DNA of 64,000 nucleotides from Eucommia ulmoides. Its lineage: Eukaryota > Streptophyta > Magnoliopsida > Garryales > Eucommiaceae. Under the pieces are notes generated by a model. That model was not told where the DNA came from. It did no database searches and was given only the letters and a program-made list of their open reading frames with translations. Made by a program: the position numbers and the translations under genes. Positions 1,470 to 54,132 of this stretch are shown one piece after another. The stretch lies in the NCBI GenBank assembly GCA_016647705.1, contig CM028334.1:12123546-12187545 (forward strand), read 5' to 3'. Positions within the stretch are counted from its first letter, which is position 1. Each line of letters starts with the position of its first letter.

Positions 1470-2395
1470 CAGGCTAAGTAGTCAGAACAATACTTTACTC
1501 AACAATCATGATACGGAACTCACTAAGAATTAGTAAGACCCGAAACCAAGTTAGGATTTCTTCGCAAATGATCGAACTAAATTTAGATTTGAAACGAAGA
1601 ATACAAGAAAATACAGAAAGTTGATAGATTACCTTAACCTAAAGTTTATGAACGAAACGCAAACCAACAATATAAGTAATGATCTTGACCCAATAATTAT
1701 TACGAATCACGAACCAAAGATATAGGGTTTGAACTCCACAAGAAATTCTTGATAAATTTAAGAAAAGTTATCTGAAGAACTTAAGAGAAAGCTCTCACAA
1801 TTGTATTGATAAAAAAATAATGTGTTTTCTCTATGTAATACAACTCTTTTAAATAAACGGCTAACAACAAAGGAAAATCCTAGATAGTGAATAGTGCAGT
1901 AATGGTGAATAGTGCGACTACAATAAAAAAAACAAAAAAAAAACCGTAGTGTCTCACACTACAAGACAAAAAAAAAAAAAAAGAATAAGAAAGCTTTTTA
2001 TCTTGCCTTATACTCCTAGTTTAAAAAGGAAAAGTTTAATTGACAATCATTCCTTACAAATCATCAACTAAAATACCAAAATTAAATTAAAAGACTAATA
2101 AATAAAATAAATATGATGAATTTTCATGGTCCTCCTTAGCCCATTTAAGTTCATGTCTAAGCCCATTCCCTTGCCTTGATAAGATGGATTAGGTCTTAAT
2201 TATCCGATAGACCTAATTTGAGTTTAACTATTGAAGACATGGGCCAAGTCTCTTGAATTAGCCCATTAAGTGATGCTTTGGTCTTCTTGGATCTTACCCT
2301 AGTAATAGGCCCAAGTGGAACATGTAACGGATCCTTTGATGGTGCTCGTTGATTTTCATCACAATTGTCCCCGGATTAAAGTGTTACAACACCAA
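1470..2395 (-). mobile_element. Retroelement debris inside the MULE
   Basis: This stretch interrupts the MULE reading between its DNA-binding and catalytic parts. Read on the minus strand from about 2380 it contains LHVPLGPITRVRSKK, which resembles the GPITRxRxK segment often found in plant LTR-retrotransposon polyprotein ends. The rest is AT-rich and LTR-like, with A-runs near 1960-1990. No paired LTRs or target duplication were found, so class and limits are tentative. Confidence 0.4.
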
Positions 2396-3334
2396 CATGA
2401 ACTTTGGCAACTTTCGATACAATTCGTCTCAATCTCTGAACAAAGTCTCGATGACTTCAGATCTAGCTAACTAAGCCTTTCGGTAGGAGATGGTGAATCC
2501 CTGAGACTCTTTTATAGAAACAACAATAACACCTATCTTTAATTCTGGATCCTCTTTGATTTGTCCAAGTATTAAGTTAAAAATGACAGCCAAATCCAAA
2601 TTCTATGATCCAAAGCCGTGTGATTGTAGAAACACGTGTGATGCCCATTGTACTGTGTAATCTGAAACATGCCGTGACTTTTTTCAGAACCACCAGCAAT
2701 CTCCAACCGTATCCATGCTTGCATTTAATCGACCAAACTTTTGGATGCGTTTTCCTCACACAAAACTCTTAGTTTTTTCATGACATGGTAATACTTCACA
2801 GTATTCTGAAGATGTTGCTTGTCCTTAAAGACCATATTAGTACGGAATTCGTCCATTTTCGTTGTCCAAAAATTCTTTCACAACTTCGGCTCGTACTTCA
2901 CCATGTCATCGTCGTTACCCCATTCCAATTAATCATAAAATAGAATAACCCTGTGCAACTCCAATTGTTCACTCTTTTACCCGCTTGACCCAACATCTAA
3001 ATCTTTGTCTCTATCTTCTTTATTCTCTTCAGGCTCTAAAGCAATACCCTTATCTAACTCTGCTTCTAACATGTCGCGATGCCTATCAATTGTATTTAAC
3101 TCACCCTCCACGTTCCCATTATACATACAACAATAATTACTTGTGTTGTCATGCGGTGGACTAGTTGGCAAATAATAGTGATGTGAAGAGGTAAAACTGG
3201 TGCCATGATCACGGTCAATCATACTATGAAAATGATATTGTTCTGGAATGTAGGGGGTAGGACGGTATAATTAGATTGAATTACTTGGGGGTGTGACATG
3301 GGAATACTATAGACGAAAAATTATCCGTCATACT

Positions 3335-5615
3335 TGACACGCCCTGATTTTCCGAAAGGAAAATGATATGAAATATTAAACGTAAAATAAGGAGTTTTTA
3401 AATCATCAATTTTCTCAAAAAAGTACTAAGGCCATTTTAAAACAAGAAGTCACCACCTAGCATTGAATTTAAATGGTACGCTAGGTCACCAAATTTTTTG
3501 AGAACAATTTCAAAGATCTAAGTAAAAATTAACTCTAAAATACTGTTAAATCAAATATTCATTTAAAGAGCTTGGGGGTCGGTTACGCTCGGAGAAGGTG
3601 TTAAACACCCCAAAACGCCCGTCCAAAAACGGTAATTTATGTCTAATGAAGTTCAATTAGTTTAAATCCGAACGTTTTATTTTATTTTGAAATCTTTTTC
3701 TTCTTACGAAATCTTTCTAGTATTTTTAAAAAATAAGATGAGAAGTTTTTTTATTTTTTGGAATGTTCCCTGAGATGACTTCTTATCAAATAGTAAAGAT
3801 TCGATAAGGATAATTCTAGGTGGTGGTTTTATGTATATTTTCGAGGGATTTCTTTAATTTAAATGGACAAACTAAACTAAGTGAAAAAGTATGAATGTAT
3901 GAATATGAACACAAAAATTAAGCTAGCATGATATGAATTTAATTCTATTGATGTAAGAGTGTATGTAATGACCTAAAAACAACTCATATGATTTTTATGC
4001 AAGAATAGTTTTAATTTAAACGTACCAATGCAAATAGTATAAATATGAGAATAAATCATAAAAACTACATGAATTAAGATGATAATATGTGACAAAGATT
4101 TAATTTTCTAATATATATATATATATATATGAAAAGTGCAAGTGGTGTACATATCGTATACTAAAATGAGAAAATATGGCATAGACTATGAAATCTAGAG
4201 TAAACTATATGTAGTGAAATATGAGAAGTGTAGGCGGTGAAAGTAACCTAAATTTGTCGTCTAAATGAAACGAAAAATAAATATACAAGATGTCGTGAGG
4301 TAAATGCAAATGACATCTATTTTTAAATTTTACCCAATTAATTCAAAGAAATCTCGTTTTGAAATTCCTTCAAATCCTATGGAGATGAGAATCAAGGGAG
4401 GATCGAGGAAACAAGTTTGTCAGAATTAATCTTTCTAAAACTTTAGCGGAATCCCACGAAAAAATATATCGAAAGAAGAGATTTCTTAAAACCAAACGTT
4501 TTTAAATACTACTCTATTTGGGGAATTAAAATGAGGTTATGGAAAATTCTCTCACAATTTATCAAATTGTTGAATTAATCATAAGGTTTGTAAGCATTAA
4601 TTCTTACAAACTAAGATTTTTTTTTTAATTATTATTATTATTATTTTTTATTTTATTTTTTTGGTTTTTATTAAAAAAAAAAGTAAAAGAAAAAAACATA
4701 AAAAAAAAAATTAAACATCCTTCACTTAACGCTCGAGAATTAAGTTTAAGTACAAATAACTCGTCCTGGCGTTTTCATCGGATGACTTATTTTTTAATTT
4801 TTTAATTTTTTTTAATAAATTGCAACAAAATAAAAATAATATATATATATAAACCAACAAGATATAAAGTGTCATCGTCTAACACTTGGAGATTCATATT
4901 GAGAACAAGAAACCTCGTCCCGACTTTTTCATTGAGTCATCAGACAATTGTAAAGGAAATAAACTTGTAAGAATTTAAATTGCGAGAACAAAAGAAATAA
5001 TGAAAAAATTAAAAATTAGAAAACATACCTATTCTGGTCAAGATGCCCGATACTTGGGTTTTTCCTCTCTTGCAAACAGCTTTCCGAAAAGGCTCTCGCT
5101 GAGAATTACTCTCTAAGAAGGTTTTTTCTCTCAATTTCTAAATGAATAAACTAGAAGGAGGAGAGTTCTATTTGTAGGAAAAGGTCTGGCGTGAAAAACA
5201 CTTAGGAAACCTTAAAATTAAGTCTAGCCGCCTAAAACTCAATCCAAGTTGGATGGGAAAGGGTAAAATTAGGAAAACAACTTAAAATAGAATTTTCTGG
5301 AACATGGGCGCGTGATTTCACATCCTCTCATTCGGCTGACACGTGGCGCCCTCCTTTGTCATCTCTCTTTCTTTCTTTTCCTCTCTCTCTCTCGGCTGAT
5401 GGGTGGCCCCACCCATTTTCTCTCGCTTTATTTCTTTTTCCTATTTTTCCATTTTTCTTAATTTTATTTTCTTTTTTTTCTTTCTATTTTCTTCTTTTCT
5501 TTTTATTTTCTCATTTTTTTCTATTTTGAATTTTCTGAAAATGAAATAAAAAATAAAGTAAACAGTAAAAATTAAATCAAATTTTTTGCGGGACGATCAA
5601 AATATCGTGTCTACA
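3335..5615. mobile_element. Solo LTR (~2.28 kb), inserted in the MULE
   Basis: The unit starts TGACACGCCCTGATTTTCC and ends GTGTCTACA, giving TG...CA termini. The flanking pentamers are ATACT on the left (3330-3334) and ACACT on the right (5616-5620), a target duplication with one change. No protein-coding segment is visible inside. The interior has a (TA)n tract near 4112-4130 and long A/T and pyrimidine runs near 4618-4700 and 5340-5520. MULE coding sequence resumes on both sides. Lineage is not assigned. Confidence 0.7.
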
Positions 5616-11200: not shown

Positions 11201-14200
11201 GCGGTCTGTCTAATTCCAATTCTCTTTCTCCCGAAATCCTTTTTAAGACGATAGCATATTCAGAATGACCCTGAATATATCAGTTATTCTATATCAAGCC
11301 ATAGAAACGCAGGCCAGAAAGAAGCAACGAGGCCAATGTGCAATAATTAATAAAATGAAATTCTAACAAACTAGTTACGAAAGTGGAATGCATTAAACTA
11401 TTATCTTTTGGAATATATGATCAATGGCTTACAACCTCTACTCCTCAATGTGTAGACTTTCTCCAGGAATACATGAATTGGTCAAGCAGCTACAGGATAA
11501 AAATACCGACGTGTATCTGATCTCTGGAGGCTTCCGCCAAATGATCAATGTACGTTTTTGCTTTTTTGTTTTACTACACTTTTTTCTTGCTGCATTTCAA
11601 TAAATCTTATCAAAGTGAAACCACTTCGATCATATTCATAAATTATCAAGGCATAATTTTCCAAACATCATATTTCTTGATGGAATTTATCGTATTCTTT
11701 TAATTTTCGGTGCCGAAAGGCCCAACTTCTTTATGACTTCTAAGTGTTGTCAATCCTTGATATTATTTTGGTTAAAATGATAATAATTCGCGTTTAGCCC
11801 GTGTAGTGTTCAATTTTTTTCTTTCAATAATCTCTCAAGGTAGTGTTCGGTTGTAAGGAATTGAAGCCTTAGAAATAGAAAACGAATGCATGTAAGTTTC
11901 TAGTTTTTATTGGCCATCATTCCTAAATCCAATTTCAAAGCTCCAAATCCGTGCTTCCAAAAGCTACCTAAAGAAAACATTTTGCTAAAAAAAGATGCTT
12001 AAAAAAACTATATAAATTTTGATGCATCATCATGAAGATAAAGAAAATTATGCTCCTAATTTAGATAATTTTTTGAAAATTTTGATGCAACTCATCTAGA
12101 AATTAGAAAGGTTATTTATTACTTCAAATTTTTATTTGATAATTGTTGATATTTGATGCATAGAATCTTGATATTTTCAAAATTTAAATATTCTACATTT
12201 GTCAAGAACTTATTTTTCGATTAGCAATTCATCCATAGCTACAAGTACTTCATAGAGTCTTCATGTGCCAAAAAGACTTAGGAACACTCATACCACGTAA
12301 GAGGTATCGAACCACAGACAAAGTAACAGTTTTTTCGTTCTACCATACAATTCTGTTCATGTGTATAAGGACGAAAGTTGTTGAAGGATGCCCCTTTGCT
12401 TAAGAAATTCATTGGTTAGTATTCTCGATCATTATCGGACTTGATATTGTGAAGAACAGTATGGTATTGGGTTTTTATCATTTTGAAAAAAGAGAGAAAA
12501 ATGAGTGAAGACTTATAGCTTTTTTCTTCATTAAGTAGACTCAAGTGCAACGGCTATAATCATCTATAAATGTGACATAGTAATGGTATTGGGAAATGGC
12601 CGTGACAGGGGAAGAGCCCTGTAGGTCAGACGGTTAGAGTGAATAAGATTAAAGGCGCTAGGGGCACGTTACATGTGAAGACTATATGTAATGTGAGTAT
12701 GTTTTGACAATTCACAAACTACACTTAAACGTAAAATCTTGGCAAGCTTTATTCAACGGCAAAAACAACCAACATAAATATTGAAAATTTGCATGTCCTA
12801 AATGGGCATCGCCACAATGCTAAAGTTTGAAAAGAATAAACCGAAATATCAAAAGCTGGTAAAACTAAAGCTTTCATGCTCAGATGAAGGCATGAGGTTG
12901 GTGGGTTACCAAAAGTAGTAGAGTCCGTCATACTCATATCTCCTGCCAAATTCTTCTTCAAAGGAAGGTTCTGCAAAAACCAATGGTCGGGTAAGAACAC
13001 AACAACACAATTAAGGTTCTTTGCAAGATGACTAACAGATAAAAGATTATAGGCAAAATTAAGAACATAGTATAAAAAGTGAAGGGTTCTATATGAAGAT
13101 AAGTAGGCATCTCTCTTACAACGAATAAGAATAGAGGTTCTATTGGCGATGCACACAGATTGATCAATGGAAGTACAAGAGAGGTAAAAGTTGATGGTTC
13201 ACCAGTCATGTGATTATTGACTTTGAAATAAAAAATCTAGATAGTTGGTCTGGCTTTACCATCAAAAGTGGGAGGAGTACCTTAGCAGAGTGGCCAGTGC
13301 GTGTGGTTCACGAGAGAGATATGGGCGAGTAACAGTAATTGACTGAATATCTGCTTCCTTTCTGGTAGCCATGGATACAGATTATACGTTGAAATATTTA
13401 ATATTTCCGTTAAGACATTATTTTTTATTTAGTAGGTCATATTTCCTATTTCGGTCACGTTGACCAATTTGGTAGCTTCCGTTTTTCTTTTATTGGCCCA
13501 TTTATTAGGACGATATTCTTTCTAATTTAGCCACCGTTATAGTTATATAATAGAGAATATAGAGCCTTATTGTATAAAATACATTACATGATAATAAAAT
13601 ATTTTCTTACGCTCCAAAATCCTTTTTGGTATCAGAGCCTAGAAAGAGAGAAATAATGGGAGGCGTAGGGGATGAGGAAAACACAAGCCCCCCGCGCCTC
13701 ACTACCTTCCCGCCATTGCCCTCGTGGCGGCGCCAAACCTTCTTCCGGCCACCGCCTTCATGCGACGCCCAAAAACTTCCGACCACTGCCTTTTTGTGGC
13801 GCAAAACCACCTTCTTCTTCACCTCGCGTTGGCCCCTCTCTGGCTATCTTTCACGATAGTTGTTTGGCGTTCCAGTTGTTGCAATTGGGCGCCGAAAATT
13901 TTAATTTTTGCCCGTTGCGGTTGTCGTCGTTGGTTGTCTAGGGTTCCAGTTGTCATAGTTAGTCGTCTGACTTTCTAGTTGTCGCCGTTGGTCTCCCTTT
14001 GTCGCAGTTGATTCGACGCCATGGGAAGACAATGGCTGGAAGGGGGTTCAACGTTGCGGGAAGGGGGTGACTGGAAGGAGGTTTGGCGCTATAGGAAGGA
14101 GATGGTGAGGCACGAGGTGCTAGGGTTTTCTCGATCCCCCATGCCTTCCATTTTTCCTCTCTTTCTAGGCTTTGATACCAAAAAATGATGTTCGAGAGTA

Positions 14201-17200
14201 AGGGAATATTTTGTCATTGTGTAATATATTCTATACAATAAGGCTCTACACTCTCTATTATATAGCCATAACGGTAGGTTAAATTAGGAAGAATATTGTC
14301 CTAATAAATTGGATGATAAAAGGAAAACGGAAGCTACCAAATTGGTCAATGTGACCTAAATAGGAAATATGACCTAAATACTTAATAATAAATAATGCCT
14401 TAGTGGAAATAGTAAATATTCCAACATTATAAGATACTGTTAAAGGGGTAATTATGTCTTTCCAGTACTGTTTAGAGTTTTCCTATATTGTTTAGGGTTT
14501 CTTGTATTGTTCCCTAACTACTATTATAAATAGAGGGAGAGGTTAACACAATTGTTAAGCCGTTTCATTCTTTTCCTACTCTTTTTTCACTTTAACATGG
14601 TATCTAGAGTAGGTTATAGAATCCTTATCTCGTAGTTCTGTTCAACCATAATTTTTTTTCCTTCTCTCCATTAAAAAAAAAAAAACAAAAAAAACCCCCA
14701 CTTTTCCAGCCCACACATCCCCGCCTCCGCCGAAACCCTAGCTCATCGCCGTCCACCTACCACTTAGATCCGACGCCATCCAAGCCAGATCTCGCTTCGA
14801 CGTTATAGCTCCGACCTTCGCCATCGCCAATCCGATCGTCACTAGAGCTTCGCCAGACTTTCGTTGAGCTTCGTTGATCTTCGTCGAACCTTCACCGATC
14901 ATATATCACCACCCCAAATGGCTCTTTCGGCCCCGATCTGTTCGCTGCTACTTTTCTTCGTCCAGATCCAGAACTTCGCGACCTTGTTTGCAGTGTCGTT
15001 GAACTCTTGCGACACAGTAGTTGCCGTTGTCGCTCCCACCGTCCAGATCCGACGTCACTAGCTCACCTCTGCCATTGTCAACCATAACCTGCCCATGAGC
15101 TTAGTTTTCATTCTTAAAAAAAAAAAAGAAGGTTGAAAATGTTTTAAGTTCCCATTCTTATATTATTTGTGGGGTTGTTTCCCTTAATCATCATTGTTAG
15201 TTGTTGTAGTGGGTGTACTGTTCTATTCGTTTAATAGGTTATTAATGTCGAGTGTGGCGCCTCAATTGTTACCCACTCATAAGTTGAATAGGTCCAAAGT
15301 TGTATAAGTTGCCATTACCGATCAAGGGAAAAGAGGTGGTAGTAGTACTGGCTTTCGGGGTGGCCACGGTGGCCATTGTCGTGGTCAACATTGTCTGTGC
15401 TTACTTTTTGGAAAGAAAAATCATATCCAAGACACTTGTTGGTACAAAGTTGGTCATTCTCCTAAGTATGCTCATGCAAAGACTTCTAATCAAGCTGTTC
15501 CCATTTCATCATCCAACTCTTCAACTCCCAAGACAATTTCTGATGACGAGTATGTTCAGTTTCTCCAGTTTAAAGCGTCCAAGCAGACATCTACCCCCAT
15601 TACTTCGCTATCTCAACGAGGTAACCTTACTGCATGTTTTTCTTTTCATCCTTCACTTTTTACACCTTGGATCATAGACTTTGCTGCCACTGATCACATG
15701 TCAGGTATCTCTTCTTTATTTACGTCTATTCAATCATCTCCTTCATCGTCCCCTGTCACTATTGCTAATGGTTCCCCCGTCCCTGTTCGTGGTATTGGCA
15801 CTGTGACACTTTCATCCTCTTTTTCTTTATCCTCTATCTTATATATTCCCTCTTTTACTTTTAATTTGATATCGGGTAGTAAGCTCACTCGACACCTTAT
15901 TTGTTTTGTTTGCTTCTTTTCTGATTCTGTCATTCTCTAGGATTTGAAAACACAGAAGATGATTGGCGTAAGGCGTGAGAAAAATGACCTTTATTCTTTC
16001 GACGATCACGACGAGACACCTGCTATCCCGTCCACTGCCTATCCTGTTGTTGCATCTGCCCACCAAATTCATTGTCGCCTAGGTCATCCATGTCTTGCCA
16101 ATCTAAAGGTACTTGTTCCTAGTTTACGTCATTTGTCCTCTTTAGATTGTGAGTCTAGTCAGTTGGGAAAACATCACCGTACTTCATTTACTGCCCTAGC
16201 TGAATTTCGAGCATCGAGTCCTTCTAGTTTAGTTCATTCAGACGTTTGGGGTCCTTCTCGTATTGCTTCTATATTAGGCTTTCGTTATTTTGTCACATTT
16301 GTCGATGATTTCTCCAGGGTTATATGGCTATATTTAATGAAAGATCGTTCCGAATTGTTTTCTATTTTCTCTTCCTTTTGTGCTGAAATTAAAACTCAAT
16401 TTAATGTACCCGTGCGTATACTTCGTAGTGATAATGTTCGAGAATATTTTTCTCAACCTTTTACTTCCTTTATGTCACAGTCTGGTATACTGCATCAGTC
16501 TTCTTGTTTTATACACCACAACAAAATGGAGTCGCTGAGCTTAAGAATCGACATCTCCTAGAAGTGGCTCGAACTCTGATGTTTGAGATGAATGTTCCCA
16601 AACACTTTTGGGCAGATTCAATTCTTACAACTTGCTTCTTGATCAATAGAATGCCATCTTCTACCTTAAATAGCAAAGTTCCTTGTTCTTTTCTTTTTTC
16701 TCGATCACCCTGGTTTGCTTTACCTCCTCGTATCTTTGGATGTGTTTGTTTTGTCCATTAGTTGACTCCCGGTATGGATAAGTTAGATCCTTGTACCATA
16801 AAATGTGTCTTCCTTAGTTATTCTCGCACACAAAAGGGTTATCGGTGTTATAATCCTTGTTTACGTCGCTCTTTTATCTGTGCAGATGTCACTTTCTTTG
16901 AGTCCACCCTTTACTTTTTTGCCACATCCTCTAGGGATGATTTGAATGTCACCCTTCCTCTACCCAGCCTCCTAGACCCGACACCATCTCTTTCCGCTAC
17001 AGAACCTGTCCCGTGCAGTTGTCTTTCACCACCTTTGCAGGTATACTCTTGTTGCCAGAAGGTAGCTTCTGCCATCATCTCTGTGTCTTCAGATTCTTCT
17101 CCAGTTCATCCATCTGCGTCTGACTTGGACATACCTATTACTGTCTGGAAGGGTAAGCGCATATGTACTCAACATCCTATTTCTAATTTTGTCTCGTATG

Positions 17201-20200
17201 CACATCTATCTCCTTTATATTTCTTTTTTGTTGCTTCTTTATCCTCTTTTTCTATTCGTAAGTCTGTTTCAGAGGTGCTCTCACTCACCCTGGTTGGACG
17301 ATCGCAATGAAAGAGGAATTGTTAGCTTTACATCAGAATGATACTTGAGATCTTGTCTCGCTTCTGCCTGACAAAACATTAGTTGGATGTAAATGAGTGT
17401 ACACCGTCAAAGTTCTGCTCTCACTCACCCTGGTTGGACGATCGCAATGAAAGAGGAATTGTTAGCTTTACATCAGAATGATACTTGAGATCTTGTCTCG
17501 CTTCTGCCTGACAAAACATTAGTTGGATGTAAATGAGTGTACACCGTCAAAGTTCATCCGGATGACATCATTAATCGGCTCAAGGCTCGTTTAGTTGCCA
17601 AAGGTTACATTCAAATATATGGTCTTGATTATTCAGAGACTTTTTCTCTCGTTGCCAAACTCGCTTCTGTTCGTTTGTTCATCTCTTTGGTAGCCACTTT
17701 TCGTTGGCCGTTGCATCAACTTGATATCAAGAATGCGTTCTTAAATGGCGATTTGACTGAGGAAGTATATATGGTGCAACCTCCTGGGTTTGTTGCTTAG
17801 GGGGAGTCTAATTTGGTATGTCGATTGAAGAAATCTATTTATGGTCTAAAACAGTCTCCTCGAGAATGGTTTGGGAGATTCAATGAAGTGGTTATTGAAT
17901 TTGGTCTTTGTCGTTGTGGAGTCGATCATTCTGTATTTTACAAGCACAGTAAAGTCGGGAGAATATTATTGATTGTATATGTGGATGACATCGTGATTAT
18001 TGGAGACGACCACCAGGGTATTCAACAACTCAAAATGTTTTTGCATAGCAAGTTTCAAACTAAAGATTTGGGTCAATTGAAGTATTTCTTAGGGATTGAA
18101 GTTACTCGATCAAGTCAAGATATTTACTTATGTCAGAGAAAATATGTTCTTGATCTGTTGAGTGAAACAAGAATGCTAGGAGTTAAACCGATTGATTCAC
18201 CCATGGATTCAAACAACAAACTGTTGGCAGATCAAGGTGTACCACTGACAGATTCAACACAATACAGACGGTTAGTTGAAAAGTTGAACTACTGGACGGT
18301 TACTAGACCAAATATTTCTTTTGCTGTGATTGTTATCAGTCAGTTCTTGGAACGTCCCACGACGTATCATTGGGATACAGTAATTCGTATTCTTCAATAT
18401 CTGAAAGGTTCTCCAGGATATGGTTTGTTGTATTAGAACTTCAGTCACACTCAAATTAAGGATACAGATGCAGATTGGGCCGGATCTCTCTTGGATAGGA
18501 AGTCTACTACAGGGTATTGTGTATTTGTTGGAAGTAATCTCGTTTCTTGGAAGAATAAAAAGCAGACAGTTGTGGAGTGGTCAAGTGTAGAACCAGAATC
18601 CAGGGCGATGTCCCATACCACTTGTGAGTTAACCTGGTTGAAACATTTGTTGGAAGAATTTGGATTCGAATACACTTCACCGATGGATCTGGTATGTGAT
18701 AATCAAGCAACACTTCACATTGCATCTAACCCAGTCTTCCATGAGAGGATAAAACACATTGAAGTTGATTGCCACTTTATTCGAGAAAAAATATTGCAGA
18801 AGTAGATAGCGACTAAACATGTAAAGTCGGTTGATCGGTTAGCTGATTTATTTACTAAACCGTTAGGAGGTTTAAGGATAAAGTATATTTGTAACAAATT
18901 AGAAGCATACAATATATATGCTCCAGTTTGAGGGGGAGTGTTAAAGGGGTAATTATGTATTTCCAGTACCGTTTAGGGTTTTCTCATATTATTTAGGGTT
19001 TCTTGTATTGTTTCCTAACTACTATTATAAATAGGGGGAGAGACTAACACAATTATTAAGCCGTCTCATTCTTTTCCTACTCTTCTTTCACTTTAACATA
19101 TACGAAGGGTAAAAAAATTGACGGAGATTGTAGGGTATTGATTGCTACTGAGAGAACCGTTGAGACACGACAAGGGCAACAGGACACTCGGTTACCGGGA
19201 CAAGGAATGGCGGAGGAAGAAAACGATGGTTTTCTAGTGCATCAGGTACAGCCCCAACTGGGAAAGGAGGACAGCCAGAGGCTGCCTTACGGGCTTGCGG
19301 CAGAGCCTGATATGGACGAACAAATAACGGCGACTGGATGGAGACCGAACATTGGCTGGATGACGCTTTTGTTCATGGTTGGCAGGCCACGCTTCGGTGG
19401 CTGGAAGCAGATTAGCAGCTGGGGAAAGCCACTGGTTCGCTGCTGGACAAAGCTGCTAGTTCAACTGGACAGGGCCGAGGCTGATGGTGGCGGCTTCGCG
19501 GCTGGACAGGGCTGTGAAGCTGTGCATCGGACGGTGCGGTTTCGAGATGGCGGCGAGGTTGTGGTTTGAGGGTTTTAGTTCTGGATACCAAAAATAATAT
19601 AGCCCAACAATCAGTAAACAAGGAAGTAAAATCACCCCTAATAAATAGGAATAATTTTTTAAGGTAGTGTTTGGTTGCAAGGAATCTAGTCCTCGGAAAT
19701 AGAAACGAATGCATGTAAATTTTTAGTTTTTGACAGGTCTTCATTTTCAATTCCAGTTTCAAACCTCCAATTCCGTGCTTTCGAAAGCTACCTAAAGAAC
19801 ATATTTTGCTAAAAGATGCATTGAAAAAAATATATAAATTTTGATGCATCACAAATAATAAAGAAAAGTATTCTCTTAAATTAGATAATATTTGAAATTC
19901 TTTTTATGCACCTAGAAATTAGAAAGCTTAATTAGTACTACAAAATTTCATTGTCGAAATATAATTTATTTCTACATTTGTCAAGAACTTATATTTTGAT
20001 TAGCAATTCGTCCATAGCTACAATTGTTTGTTGAAACCCGTAACGAGCCAAGTGCATTTTTTGTGCAAATGAACAAGTATGTATTGCTAACTTCTTACGT
20101 ATTCTTTTAGCCTGTGGCGTCTATCCTTGGCATACCGCGTAAAAACATATTTGCCAATAATTTACTCTTTGGAAGCTCTGGGGAGTTCTTGGGGTTTGAT

Positions 20201-33540: not shown

Positions 33541-35087
33541 TCTCTGTCACACCCCACCCCGGACACCTATCATCCTAGGGCCGGCATGACGCCGACAAGA
33601 CATCACCTGCGTGCCAAACCAACTAGGAAATGACAAGTGCATACATAAATACACAACCACCAATTCAGACCATATTGATTTTAATTACACTCTTTAATTG
33701 GGGACACACTCATTCCTACAAAATTTAATATTAAAACAAAGATAAAACAACCATGAACCTCTCATAGGTTCGCCTCAACCAGCACCTCCCAAAAATACTC
33801 TCTCACTACTGTATTGCCGGACTTTATCTAGTGCTAGTAGAGGACCGATACCTAACTGCTGTACCTACGAGTGTACTGTCTTCTTAATAAAAACATTTTA
33901 GAAGGATCAAACATAAAACACATAAATATCACATATCACAAAGAAAACCCCATTTTCTTGTCACCACAGAAAACAACATATATATGTTTATAACATCTCA
34001 ACTAAGCAGTAAAAATCAACCAGAACGTCGCAGCAACCATATAGTATAACGCAACCGAAATAGTAGATATATCAACGTAAACGGATACACCAATCCAGTA
34101 TAAAATAAAGTATATATAATTGCAAATTTATTCAACTCATTCACCATATATGAAAAATACAACATCACACCATGGCTAGTCATGTGATCGTTTTAACCTC
34201 ACGATCGGGAGTTGTAATGGTACTGTACCACTCATAGGATATGCCTTCCTAGCGGGATATAACAACGCTCTACTGAACTATGCAAAACAGGTGAACAATG
34301 CTCTGTTAGACTATGCCAAGCAATTAAATATCCAACACCAGTTTTCACCTCACCTCAATAACAACAACTCATTTCCACCTCAACAACAACAACTCTACCC
34401 ATGATCAACTTCCACCCTTTTAGAAAAATAATGAAATCCACAATTTCAGAAAAACCCAAAATACCGCTTGATCCATGTAAGATAAAAAATTCATTCAATT
34501 TTAAGTAAACACATTTTTCTATTATATATATATATATATGAAAATAGATTTACTAGAAGACAGTACACTTACCTGGTTATCCGCTCCGAAGGCTTTTACT
34601 AACTATCCTCTATTGGTAGTCCGATGCCTGCAAACCTAATAGTGACAAGGTCTAAATTAATATTTTATATAAAAATAACCTAACCACGAAATGCGGGCCT
34701 TAATTTTCGTAATTTCCTATTCCCCGTATTTTATTATAAAATATAACTATTCAACTAGTATTGCTTAAATTTATTTATGGGAATGGTCTCGATATTTATT
34801 ATAGTCATTTTGATATTTGTGATGCTAATAATTAAAGTTAACATTTATAAGATATAACGAGAAACGTTACCCGTTCCGAAACGGTTGTCGATTTTCTTAA
34901 AAAATTCTTAATTTATACTCCTGCTCCCACCGCCTCGGCGCAAAACCCCCCATTGCGGCGAACACACTCCTTCTCTGCTCTAGTTCACTTATTGATGCTC
35001 CACTGCCTAGGCGAAATAACCACCGCCTAGGCGAACCGCTTCCCTTACTTTCTGATCTGTACATTGACCCTTTTCCGCCGAGGCGAA

Positions 35088-39674: not shown

Positions 39675-41302
39675 TGTCACACCCTACCCCGGACACCCAT
39701 CATCCTGGGGCTGGCATGACGTCGACAAGACATCACCTGCGTGCCAAACCAATTAGGAAACGACAAGTGTATACATAAATACACAACCACCAACTCAGAC
39801 CATATTGATTTTAATTATACTCTCTAATTGGAGACACATCCGTTCCTACAAAATTTAATATTAAAACAAAGATAAAATAACCATGAACCTCTCATAGGTT
39901 CGCCTAAACCAGCACCTCCCAAAAATACTCTCTTACTATCGCATTGCCGGACTCTATCTAGTACCAGTAGGGGAGTAACTCCTAACTGTTGTATCTGCGA
40001 GTGTACTTTCTTCTTAATAAAAATATTTTAGAAGGATCAAATATAAAACATATAAATATCACATATCACAAAGAAAATCTCATTTTCTTGTCACCACAGA
40101 AAACAATGTATATATGTTTATAACATCTCAACTAAACAGTAAAAATCAACCAGAACGTCGCAGCAACCATATAGTATAACACAATCGAAATAATAGATAT
40201 ATCAATGTAAATGGATACCCCAATTCAGTATAAAATAAAGTATATATAATTACAAAATTATTCAACTCATTCACCATATACGACAAACACCACATCACAC
40301 CACGACTAGCCATGTGATCATTTTAACCTCACGATCGAGAGTTACAATGGTACTGTACCACCCGTAGGATATGCCTTCCTAGCGGGACATAACAACGCTC
40401 TGCTGGACTATACCAAGCAGGTGAACAATGCTCTACTGGACTATGCCAAGCAGGTGAATATTCAACACCAATTTTCACCTCACCTCAACAACAACTTTGC
40501 CCATGATCAACTTCTACCTTTTTAGAAAAACAATGAAATCCACAATGTCAGAAACACCCAAAATACTGCTTCTACCGGTAGTCCGATACCTGCGAACCTA
40601 ATAGTGACAAGGTCTAAATTAATATTTTATGTAAAAATAACCTAACCACGAAATGCGGACCTTAATTTTCGTAATTTCTTATTCCCCGTATTTTATTATA
40701 AAATATAACTATTCAACTAGTATTGCTCAAATTTATTTATGGGAACAGTCTCGATATTTATTATAGTCATTTTGATATTTTTTATGCTAATAATTAAAGT
40801 TAACATTTGTAAGATATAATGAGAAACGTTACCCGTTCCGAAACAGTTGTCGATCTCCTTAAAAATTTCTTAATTTATACTCCTGCTCCCACCGCCTCGG
40901 CGCAAAACCCATTGCCGCGGCGATCACGCTCCTTCTCTGCTCTAGTTCACTTACTAACGCTCCACCACTTAAGCGAAATAACCACTGCCTAGATGAATCG
41001 CTTCCCTTACTTTCTGATCTGCATACTGACCTTTTTCCGCCGAGGTGAATGTATTTCCGCCTAGGCGAACTTGCTGTTCTTTCTCTCTGTTCTATTTTGA
41101 AGCTCAACCATCTCTCTCTCCTCGCCAACTCCGGCCACCATCACCCACGAACGTCCATACACACACAACACACACAATACACACCCGCATGCACACCGTA
41201 AGCTTCACTATCACACACAGCAGGCACCTTCACACACACACACACACACACACAATGTCACACACACCACCGCAGCTCTCTCTCTTTCTAGCTTTTATTC
41301 AC
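39675..41302 (-). repeat. 5' LTR of the large element, truncated
   Basis: Matches 33545 to about 36885 of the other LTR, less the insertion and a ~150-bp internal gap. Homology stops at CTTTTATTCAC (about 41302), where gypsy gag sequence begins. About 0.66 kb of the LTR start is therefore missing. Confidence 0.8.
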
Positions 41303-43315: not shown

Positions 43316-43443
43316 TGTTGAATAATTGTACTTTCCTAATTTAGAATAATTTTACCTTCCTATTTTAGAGATTTAATTGAGATTGTAATTAGGATAATTG
43401 GGGGATGTGATAACTTGTTTATAGGGTTTTATGTCTAGAATCA

Positions 43444-43493
<50 letters not shown>

Positions 43494-45502
43494 CTTGTAT
43501 GATCCATCCAAGAGGTGGATCATTCTCCAACTCAGCCAAAAACCAATGTTCTAGAAAATGTAGCTCCATCCCCGGTCAACATATCACACCAATCGTTTAC
43601 TGAAGATATTCCTGAACCACACAAAAGATAGTTACCACAGCGTCGCACGAGAGGTATTCCTAAATCCATATATGAACCTGAACTTTATAGTAAAGTAAAA
43701 TATCACGAGTCATTACGTGTCTAACCATTGTTTGTCAGAATCAAATATGTCTTTTGTGAATTAATTATCTGTTGTATCAATTTCTAACAGTGTGCATGAA
43801 GCCTTATCTGATCGTAGATGGAAAGCAGCTATGAATGAGAAGATGAAATCTCTGGAAAAAAAAATGAAATATGGGAACTAGTTGATCCTCCACCAGGAAA
43901 GAAACCAGTTGGATGTTGGTGGATTTACATTGTGAAGTACAAGACTGATAACACAATTGAATGGTAGCAAATAGATACGCTCAAACTTATGGGATTGATT
44001 ACACAGAAACATTTGCACCTGTAGCCAAAATCAACACAATTTGTGTTTTTCTATCTTTAGTTGTCAACTTGGATTAGCCCTTACAACAATTGGATGTGAA
44101 GTATGCATTTTTTGCATGGTGAATTATCTGAAGAAGTCTACATAGATCTCCCACTAGGATGCATGAACCCAAAAGACAACCAAAAGGTTTGCAGACTAAA
44201 GAAATCATTGTATGGGTTGAAGCAGTCTCCTAGAGTATGGTTTGGAAGATTCACAAAATCTATGATAGCCTTTGGCTACTATTGAAGCAGCTCAGATCAT
44301 ACTCTTTTTCTCTAAAAGGAGTAAGGTAAGATAAATGCACTCATTGTATATGTGGATGATATAGTGGTTACATGGAATAATCCTAATGAAAGAAAAATCT
44401 TGCAAGATTACTTGTCCAAAGAATTTGAAATGAAAGATCTAGGCCCTCTGAAATATTTTCTTGGGATTGAAGTACCCAAATCTAACAAAGGGATGTTCTG
44501 TCTTAAAAAAATGCTCTAGATCTATTACGAGAGACGGGTATGTCAGCATGTCAACCAGTTGATACACCTGTAGAAGAAGATCTAAAACCATGTGTTAAGC
44601 CCAACTAGATACCAGTTGACAAGGGAAGATACCAAAGACTGGTAGAGAGATTGTTGTACTTATCTCATACCAAACCAGATCTGACTTTTACCTTGAGTAT
44701 TGTCAGCCAGTTTATATATAATCCTGGAGAACAACATATGAATGTATTTATTCGCATTTTGAGGTATCTAAAGTCTGTTCCAGGAAAATGAGTATTATTC
44801 ACTAAAAACATAAACCATCAAAGCATAGAAGCCTATACTGATGCTGTTTGGGCTGATGATGTGGGTGACAGACAGTCTACTTCTGGATACTTTACTTTTC
44901 TAGGACGTAACCTTATGACATGGAATAGCAAGAAGCAAAATGTTGTAACTCGCTCGAGTGCAGAAGTTGAATTTAGAGGTTTGACAAATGTACTGTGTGA
45001 GATATTATGTCTAAGATTCCTTTTGTGAGATTTGGGTTATCTACCTGAACAACCTATTCGACTATTTTGTGACAATAAAGCAACATGTGACATCGCGTAT
45101 AATTCAGTTCAACACGATCACACAAAACACGTCGAGGTTAATAGATTTTTCATTAAGGAAAAGTTAGATGGAAAGATTGTGAAATTACTTAAGATTCGAT
45201 TAGAGAATCAGTTGGTTGACATCCTTACCAAAGTAGTCTCAAATCAAGTATTCTTAAAGTTTTTAGACAAGTTGGGCATGTGAGACATCCATGCACCAAC
45301 TTGAGGGGGAGTGTTGAATAATTCTACCTTCCTAATTTAAAGTAATTTTGCCTTCCTATTTTAGAGATTTGATTGAGATTGTAATTGCGATAATTGGGGG
45401 GATATGATAGCTTGATTCTAGGGTTTTATGTTTAGAATCAAGCTATATGTATACACATCTTGTATGATTGAAATGATATGAATGAAAAGATATAATCCAA
45501 TA
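43316..45502 (+). mobile_element. Truncated Ty1/copia element
   Basis: The 5' LTR (43316 to about 43502) and 3' LTR (45312-45502, 191 bp) both begin TGTTGAATAATT. The polypurine tract TTGAGGGGGAG abuts the 3' LTR. TCAAT flanks both sides (43311-43315 and 45503-45507), a perfect target duplication if the LTR ends CCAATA (a CA to TA change). The 5' LTR runs straight into late pol, so leader, gag, protease and most of integrase are deleted. The 5' LTR carries a ~45-bp (TA)n expansion absent from the 3' LTR. Confidence 0.85.
43520..45283 (+). pseudogene. Copia RT/RNase H remnant
   Basis: Visible motifs: an acidic linker with [68 protein letters not shown] (RT active site kept) and KYFLGIEV. RNase H follows with a QSTSGYFTFLGRNLMTW-type segment, SSAEVEF and CDNKATCDIAYN, ending near VDILTK. 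Stops and frameshifts break it into many pieces. Confidence 0.9.
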
Positions 45503-52813: not shown

Positions 52814-54132
52814 ATGGGAATGAATTACAATTGATGCATAAGATTTCTTCTCCTCTCGAGCAGCAGAGATATCTGCACCAACGACAGCAATATTTTCAAC
52901 CTGGCTCGAATGAGTTGGAGGTTCATCAACAATTTCTTCGTCAGTAACTGATCCTTCCTCATTATCCGAAGGGTCCTGAACTTCTGGGGTATTATATGCG
53001 TCATCAGCTTCCAAGGTAGGTGACAATTCAAACGTGGGATGATCCGGAACATTGGTGGGCTCTGAGGAGAAAAACAAGACGAGTTGAAAATTTTTACCAT
53101 GATTTCTTATCCAAAAACGGATCTAAAGAGGAAGTCCTAAACATCAGTCAAATGAGAGGAATAAAGCCAACCTGCATCTGATTCCAATGGAGCAGTTGGT
53201 GGTGCACTGTCATTGATACTATTAACTGATGGAAAGAGAGTATCCACCGATTCACTATCCTCAACATACCTAAAAATATCATTTAAGACAAAATAGCCTT
53301 TCTCTTGTGGAGCTAGAAAGAACGTTTGTGTGAAGTCTTTTCTAACATTGTCCTTTCCAGTTAAGCAACCTGTCACCAGAACAATCACCCCTTCCTGGTG
53401 CGAATCCTGAGCATCTGCACTTTTTATTTCGGCCTTGTAGTTCTTATAATCCAAGGATTGTATCTTCTCATTGATTGCCTGGTCAAGGTGGAGTAAAACA
53501 TACTTGCTCAAATAAGACCACTGATCTCATGCAGTTCCAGTTTTAAAAAATTCTTTCTATTTTTACGCATTTCCAAGGATAACAAAGAAAAGGTAAATAT
53601 GAGCAATTTAACATAAGGCCAAAGTCATCCTCTAACATGGATGTGAGGAAAACTGGTGGTTATTGGCCTTATCCAAACTGGCCTTTAGAGAGACTTATTC
53701 GTTATCTAGCTCTAAGCAATACAGCTTATAAGATAAATATATTAATTCATAGGAAAGTATAAACATGGAGAAGCATAATAATACGCACTCCCACATCGGT
53801 CACTCTCAAGTCTTAAGCAAGTTTTATCACCATTCTGACTAATTCTCTTTCAGCTTGAATTACTTGTGACATATTATGTATACCCTGACCCAATTATTTA
53901 CAAGCACAAACACTTAAAAAGATCAAATTAATAGTGGGCCTACTTGCATTGTGGTCACTGAAGTCATTACACCATTGGGATCTGGTCGGCTCAGCATGCT
54001 TACGTCCTGATAAAATTTGTAAACCAGTTCGGGAGATTGATGAAGTATATGATAATACTGCTCCACAAAGGCATTGCCAACAACTTGGGAGCTGTGAACC
54101 GCAGCAGCAGAATTTGCTGCCTCCATAGCCAT
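48644..54132 (-). CDS. G3BP-like NTF2/RRM protein (9 coding exons)
   Basis: Exons (minus): 54132-53944, 53478-53172, 53061-52829, 52719-52542, 52317-52196, 52095-52030, 49950-49887, 48897-48644. These eight blocks, all GT-AG, sum to 470 codons plus stop in one frame, so there are eight coding exons plus a non-coding leader exon. The NTF2-like domain spans about 13-132 (VGNAFVEQYYHILHQSP, GYFVLNDIFRYVE). An acidic linker follows, then a Pro-rich stretch, an RRM from about 306 (RNP2 IYIRNL, RNP1 GYCFGFVEF at 346-354) and a Gly/Arg-rich RGG tail from about 389. This is the G3BP/Rasputin layout: an RNA-binding protein of stress granules in the cytosol, linked in plants to stress and antiviral responses. 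The first exon begins exactly at the ATG after CAACACAG. Confidence 0.93.
48903..48923 (-). promoter_or_regulatory. G-quadruplex motif at a 3' splice site
   Basis: On the transcribed RNA four GGG runs separated by TGT occupy 48923-48903, and the AG of the acceptor is at 48899-48898. The tract replaces the usual pyrimidine stretch next to the AG; pyrimidines begin only about 30 nt upstream. It belongs to the last intron of the G3BP-like gene. Confidence 0.7.
51300..51960. repeat. Dispersed repeat in G3BP intron 6-7
   Basis: Rich in GTGTC / CGTGT and TTAAACAGG motifs, similar in wording to 47760-48160, with (TA)n at 51824-51836. No coding signal. The class is not identified. Confidence 0.4.
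52091..52100 (-). promoter_or_regulatory. Tandem 3' splice site, 6 nt apart (G3BP)
   Basis: The acceptor of the RNP1 exon reads CCAG|CAACAG|GGA. Use of the second AG would remove two Gln (344-345) just before the RNP1 motif without a frameshift. Confidence 0.45.
52786..52811 (-). repeat. (GA)n microsatellite in G3BP intron
   Basis: About 13 GA units on the plus strand; on the transcript this is a CU tract just inside the intron after the exon ending at 52829. Confidence 0.85.

Follow-up and report, generated by a model that had tools for sequence, protein, structure and literature searches.

Inverted long terminal repeats (LTRs) are characteristic of DIRS-1-like elements, which use a tyrosine recombinase and are not known to leave a target duplication. 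Rearranged LTR-element cDNA, in which an LTR end is joined to an internal site, reportedly arises by auto-integration. For Ty1, such products are attributed to Garfinkel et al. 2006, a study cited in PMC12786077 and PMC11044480. Truncated EVD insertions in Arabidopsis methylation mutants indicate that rearranged LTR-element cDNA reaches the genome, and two of them are described with clear duplications in passages of PMC10462705. Alternative end joining (alt-EJ) is reported to act on retrotransposon cDNA via short homologies (Yang et al. 2023, as cited in a section of the review PMC12786077). A close parallel is provided by the template-switch LTR complexes of Sabot and Schulman 2007 (PMC1950507), in which aberrant cDNA was fused before integration and entered the genome once, with 5-bp duplications on the outside; these traits recur in the locus described here. 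The locus is a 1,040-bp unit at positions 13387-14426 of a 64,000-bp stretch of the Eucommia ulmoides genome (contig CM028334.1, C10:12123546-12187545), hereafter the window. The unit consists of two inverted LTR-bearing arms and, with a probability of about 0.82, represents one insertion of a fused aberrant cDNA, whichever way the fusion happened. Its structure, its parent family, its single insertion and a second unit with both U3 ends outward (locus L043) are established below.

Structure of the inverted unit

The unit is flanked on both sides by TTATA (13382-13386 and 14427-14431), as read directly from the window sequence, and each arm is ordered, from the outer end inward, as LTR, primer-binding site (PBS) and leader. 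The left arm, on the plus strand, comprises an LTR with U3 outward (13387-13626), the PBS TGGTATCAGAGCC (13627-13639) and a leader or internal part (13640-14005) that is collinear with the parent to about position 624. The right arm lies on the minus strand and consists, from the centre outward, of a reversed leader (14011-14167), collinear with the parent to about position 421, a PBS (14168-14180, TGGTATCAAAGCC on the minus strand) and an LTR with U3 outward (14181-14426). The PBS TGGTATCAGAGCC is presumably of the tRNA-iMet type. The left terminus is CGTTGA, where the family mostly has TGTTG (CG in place of TG), and the right terminus is CCAACA.

The initial annotation had described inverted arms of LTR, PBS and leader between perfect TTATA copies, and this arrangement is what the sequence contains. 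The two facing LTRs likewise stand, with lengths of 240 bp (left) and 246 bp (right) when measured up to the PBS in place of the 233 and 238 bp given before. The self-complementary arms were also recognised correctly, the pairing spanning about 421 bp and not about 350 bp: left-arm positions 2-426 align with the right arm up to 421, and repeat detection yields three inverted repeats, one of 115 nt with 86% identity and two, of 102 and 85 nt, with 81% each.

Between the arms, family matches to a junction query end at query position 161 from the left and begin at 157 from the right, which places the junction at 14006-14010, a 5-bp overlap (AGTTG) of matches from both sides and a possible microhomology. 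AGTTG is read at the junction position in several left-side parents. No LTR terminus is present on either side of 14006-14010, the join being internal to internal. Auto-integration, which had been proposed as one source of the cDNA, is disfavoured because the junction holds no LTR end; snap-back or strand switching, proposed together with it, is still a possible route and is considered below.

A single insertion

The two flanks of the unit were joined in silico and aligned to 20 related host loci, namely 12 of the 12 other matches of the left flank (110 bp) and 8 of the 16 matches of the right flank. Eleven of the 20 loci (L048, L049, L054, L058, L060-L063 and L065-L067) cross the site uninterrupted, and the unit thus has the single insertion with flanking duplication that marks template-switch complexes. 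Ten of the 11 empty sites carry a single TTACA, and L054 has TACA with a one-base gap; six of the 11 (L061-L063, L065-L067) belong to a single cluster (C16:52.1-52.2 Mb) and are unlikely to be independent. Since uninterrupted empty sites hold one TTACA-like motif, the entire unit arrived in one event, with a U3 end on either side. TTACA predominates among the relatives and both window copies are TTATA, the pattern that duplication of a single TTATA would give. The chance identity of two random 5-mers from the window flanks is 0.0018, and the empty site is stronger evidence for a duplication than this identity. The earlier proposal that a molecule with the same terminus (U3) on both sides was integrated once, with a true 5-bp duplication, is therefore borne out by the empty sites.

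The empty sites also bear on a history of two separate insertions in opposite orientation, followed by deletion of both 3' halves. The family is common (877 first-look candidates in the genome) and chance neighbours do occur, as at locus L037, but identical TTATA is found on both outer flanks of the unit with one copy in the paralogous empty sites, and the similarity of the arms exceeds that of most LTR pairs from different elements. Such a history is very improbable. An assembly artefact was rejected as well, the arms differing by 14% in the LTR and by 25% in the leader.

The host DNA appears, from its sequence, to be part of an old copia-like element, with the unit lying at the leader/gag boundary. 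The flank sequence matches many genomic places, and no Pfam match was obtained in the 149-aa frame left of the unit. A second copia element (14438-19098, with Pfam domains RVT_2 and rve) is separated by 6 bp from the right-hand TTATA copy of the unit; it has flanks of its own (GATAC and TATAC), LTRs 92% alike over 161 nt and an exact 140-bp tandem duplication at 17276-17555.

The parent family and the relation of the arms

The genome searched comprises 946.7 Mb in 391 contigs. The family sample consisted of the best 40 of the 877 first-look candidates for the unit query, the window included; the 39 others, with 13 loci from the junction search, make up 52 retrieved loci (53 with the window). 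The majority of retrieved copies are either single LTRs or elements of about 0.9-1.4 kb with direct LTRs. Direct copies have LTRs of about 240 bp; a PBS follows the 5' LTR, and a polypurine tract (PPT; e.g. AACTTGAGGGGGAG) precedes the 3' LTR. A perfect 5-bp duplication flanks 8 of the 27 same-strand LTR pairs (one of the eight being TTTTT, of low complexity) and a 4/5 match a further 9, the 27 including a few pairs that are not from one element (e.g. in L029 and L043); 702 cross-pairs used as a control gave 0.3% and 9.7%, respectively. These figures indicate that the parent copies are ordinary LTR insertions with a 5-bp target duplication. Seven of the eight perfect duplications put the LTR 3' end after TTTT, directly ahead of the PBS in the 5' LTR, and therefore LTRs of this family run TG...TTTT and not TG...CA.

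Judged by its short LTRs, PBS, PPT and length of about 1 kb, the parent is identified as a non-autonomous LTR family resembling terminal-repeat retrotransposons in miniature (TRIMs). The direct-LTR parent anticipated by the initial annotation was thus found, but it does not seem to be a coding copia, for which copies of about 1 kb are too short. At C10:22329868 and C10:22330671, separated by about 800 bp, two family leaders are oriented alike and possibly belong to a tandem element. The left arm of the window unit is collinear with parental copies to positions 587-632 in 19 of the 23 tested (parental positions 1-624) and the right arm to 355-421 in 20 of the 23 (parental positions 1-421).

Collinearity of the right arm is relevant to a local inversion within a normal direct-LTR copy, in favour of which nothing was found. 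The right arm has a PBS and leader, which do not follow a 3' LTR; its U3 end directly adjoins the duplication, and a breakpoint exactly at the LTR edge would be needed; and a scan of the unit revealed no polypurine run at any LTR edge. A local inversion has hardly any probability, and with separate insertions it makes up the two histories that the initial annotation had set against its own proposal, of which separate insertions are disfavoured by the empty sites and an inversion by the PBS and leader of the right arm.

The arms share 85.8% LTR identity (Kimura two-parameter distance, 0.160). With L043 left out and at most two LTRs per locus in the between-element set, mean LTR identity is 83.5% within a locus (17 pairs) and 81.5% between elements (1,522 pairs), of which 3.4% reach the value of the arms. 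Five rare variants are common to both arms, two of them having frequencies of 0% and 3% among the 60 remaining LTRs; as many are shared by 5 of 18 within-locus pairs and by 4.0% of 1,866 between-element pairs. By leader similarity score, the left arm is first or second nearest to the right, and the right is 7th-18th nearest to the left. It is likely, on these comparisons, that the arms derive from one RNA or from sister RNAs, and the 14% LTR divergence indicates that the insertion is old.

Other units with inverted LTRs

Among the best 40 of 51 candidates in the junction-query search, no match crossed the junction besides that of the window itself. The leader search revealed no opposed leader pairs outside the window among the best 40 of 96 candidates, and none was present among the best 40 of 106 when the leader of another copy was used, a query of limited power for which the window itself was not listed. 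The suggestion of a propagating self-complementary family thus finds no support among the candidates scored, and what exists instead is independent units with U3 outward. The same result concerns a DNA transposon or a miniature inverted-repeat transposable element (MITE) whose termini are long inverted repeats: the length of the inverted ends and the short target duplication would suit it, but these ends are LTRs, the family to which they belong is inserted with direct LTRs, PBS and PPT, and the several copies with the whole inverted structure that mark such transposons were not found among the same 40. This origin is as improbable as a local inversion.

LTRs on both strands occur in three of the 52 retrieved loci (L037, L043 and L071). 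In L043 (C10:5500100-5505000), positions 2043-3706 hold, between AAAAA flanks, a plus-strand LTR and a whole element in reverse, with about 360 bp of other DNA between the two; AAAAA is a low-complexity motif that occurs at 41 of 4,897 positions of the locus. The paralogous locus L082, which was matched at E 7.3e-9 in a search with the left flank alone, joins the outer flanks of L043 directly, the left flank aligning to 7-153 and the right, with numerous indels, to 150-566; the alignment scores were 104 for the left flank, 110 for the right, 206 for the two joined and 107 for the left flank with the inner DNA. Since L082 has the outer flanks joined, L043 is a second insertion with U3 outward, and its interpretation as two independent insertions is overturned by this empty site. 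L043 was later partly duplicated in tandem (about 1.2 kb). Its extra DNA gave no Rfam match and no plasmid match, and the L043 frame no Pfam match; parts of this DNA recur at six other genomic places (9 of 9 candidates scored, four retrieved).

In L071 (C10:48707600-48711400), positions 156-2769 comprise a whole element that abuts a reversed one, U5 to U5, with 0-1 bp between. The sole other match to its right flank, L081, does not show an empty site, and on its arrangement L071 may possibly be a third unit with U3 outward. A U5-U5 pattern search with up to 3 mismatches gave 0 matches and would also miss L071, owing to a one-base deletion. L037, with opposed LTRs about 2 kb apart and CATAT on both sides of the plus-strand LTR if the LTR end is taken one base further, looks like separate insertions.

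U3 lies outside in the window unit, L043 and L071, and the joins vary on the U5 side: internal to internal in the window, truncated U5 with filler in L043, and U5 to U5 in L071. This bias may arise because only the U3 end carries the usual CA-3', a suggestion drawn from three cases, one of them doubtful. Tentatively, fused dimers with U3 outward might form a recurrent minor insertion class in the family (the window unit and L043, with L071 possible, among 53 loci chosen by similarity), in which integrase readily uses two U3 ends since only those carry CA-3', the U5 end being TTTT, and end joining of partial cDNAs would steadily supply self-complementary, integration-competent by-products that seed hairpin-RNA loci.

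Proposed origin of the inserted molecule

Insertion of a fused cDNA probably proceeded as follows. Two 5' parts of a TRIM-like element, each with LTR, PBS and leader (about 624 bp and about 421 bp), would have been fused tail-to-tail before integration, giving a linear product with a U3 terminus at each end. Integrase supplied in trans, presumably by a copia element, would then have inserted this molecule with a 5-bp TTATA duplication.

End joining typically leaves truncations, short overlaps and filler. Joining of the arms by end joining of partial cDNAs appears somewhat more probable than snap-back or strand switching, because the join of L043 contains extra DNA and that of L071 brings two U5 ends directly together. 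Reverse transcription with snap-back or strand switching, itself a form of fused-cDNA insertion, has a smaller though still considerable chance. The growing plus strand would reach about position 624, fold back or switch at AGTTG/CAACT near position 421, and proceed to copy a plus strand as far as its U3 end. Self-priming would be expected to leave unequal arms (624 and 421), a single-copy loop of about 200 bp and a 5-bp inverted overlap at the join, as seen here. On the other hand, a hairpin has one closed end, and a second copying step would be needed; the overlap is matched only in part by the parents; and the fit to the extra DNA of L043 and the U5-U5 join of L071 is poor. The route is possible for the window alone.

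Several observations weigh against insertion of a fused cDNA, or against parts of this interpretation. At eight of the 20 host loci (L050-L053, L055-L057, L064) the alignment that spans the site is gapped or poor near it, and one locus (L059) stops short of it. At the junction, L012 and L016, the only two copies aligning far enough rightward, match the overlap at 4/5, with CACCT where the right arm has CAACT, and the microhomology is 4 or 5 of 5. Leader identity between the arms is 75.0%, close to the mean of 74.6% among other copies (351 pairs). The LTR tree does not pair the arms as sisters (clade of 24, support 0.08), a test of little power that recovers sisters in 3 of 18 same-locus pairs, L043 aside; the case for a sister relation of the arms is, on this basis, weak. 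The outer flanks of L071 (TTGTC and GTGTG) agree at 3/5, and 3/5 or better is expected by chance in 16% of cases. The loci were selected by similarity and only the best candidates scored, which means that further inverted copies could have escaped detection and a rate is not derivable. Finally, all new truncated EVD insertions described in passages of PMC10462705 kept two LTRs, unlike the shape of the window unit.

Hairpin potential and other features of the window

One strand of the unit is predicted to fold almost end to end (-548.7 kcal/mol for the single sequence), and both LTRs face inward. A hairpin transcript and small interfering RNAs might be produced from the unit.

Elsewhere in the window, an LTR-like element of about 2 kb (43316-45453) has direct repeats of 142 bp (89% identity) and a polypurine tract ahead of the second repeat. 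Direct-repeat pieces that are 92-94% alike occur about 6 kb apart at 33545-34908 and 39675-40870, and an open reading frame with an NTF2 domain is located on the minus strand at 53137-53526.

Comparison with known systems

A literature search at the level of titles and abstracts found no report of an inserted LTR unit that ends in U3 on both sides, which does not establish its absence from print. Template-switch complexes (PMC1950507) contain three LTRs in direct order with a shared internal LTR and have normal U3 and U5 ends, whereas the arms of the window unit are inverted, no direct order with a shared internal LTR is present and both ends are U3. The TRIM elements described in part of PMC7215508 (Cassandra tandem arrays) resemble the parent family, which has LTRs of about 240 bp, PBS, PPT and a length of about 0.9-1.4 kb in most copies; in comparison with them, the window unit has inverted LTRs and lacks the direct LTRs, PPT and 3' LTR of a TRIM-like element. 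Inverted arms are not mentioned for truncated EVD insertions in passages of PMC10462705. In the section of PMC12786077 that deals with alt-EJ, this pathway serves normal second-strand transfer and circle formation, and an inverted fused dimer is not mentioned.

Auto-integration products have an LTR terminus at an internal site, and no LTR end is found at the window junction. DIRS-1-like elements have inverted LTRs in common with the window unit, which differs from them by its target duplication.

The unit has some consequences for the view of LTR-element integration. In genomic DNA, it shows that identical termini on both sides of a molecule do not prevent its insertion by an LTR-element integrase, and that tail-to-tail fused cDNA is not always a dead end. 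The numbers of units with U3 outward and with U5 outward would bear directly on which LTR terminus integrase needs. Such insertions give long inverted repeats with inward LTRs, which are a plausible origin of hairpin RNA loci and could start the silencing of the family. Against the background of the known systems, the window unit is well supported as an unusual insertion, a variant of the integration of aberrant LTR-element cDNA and not a new kind of mobile element.

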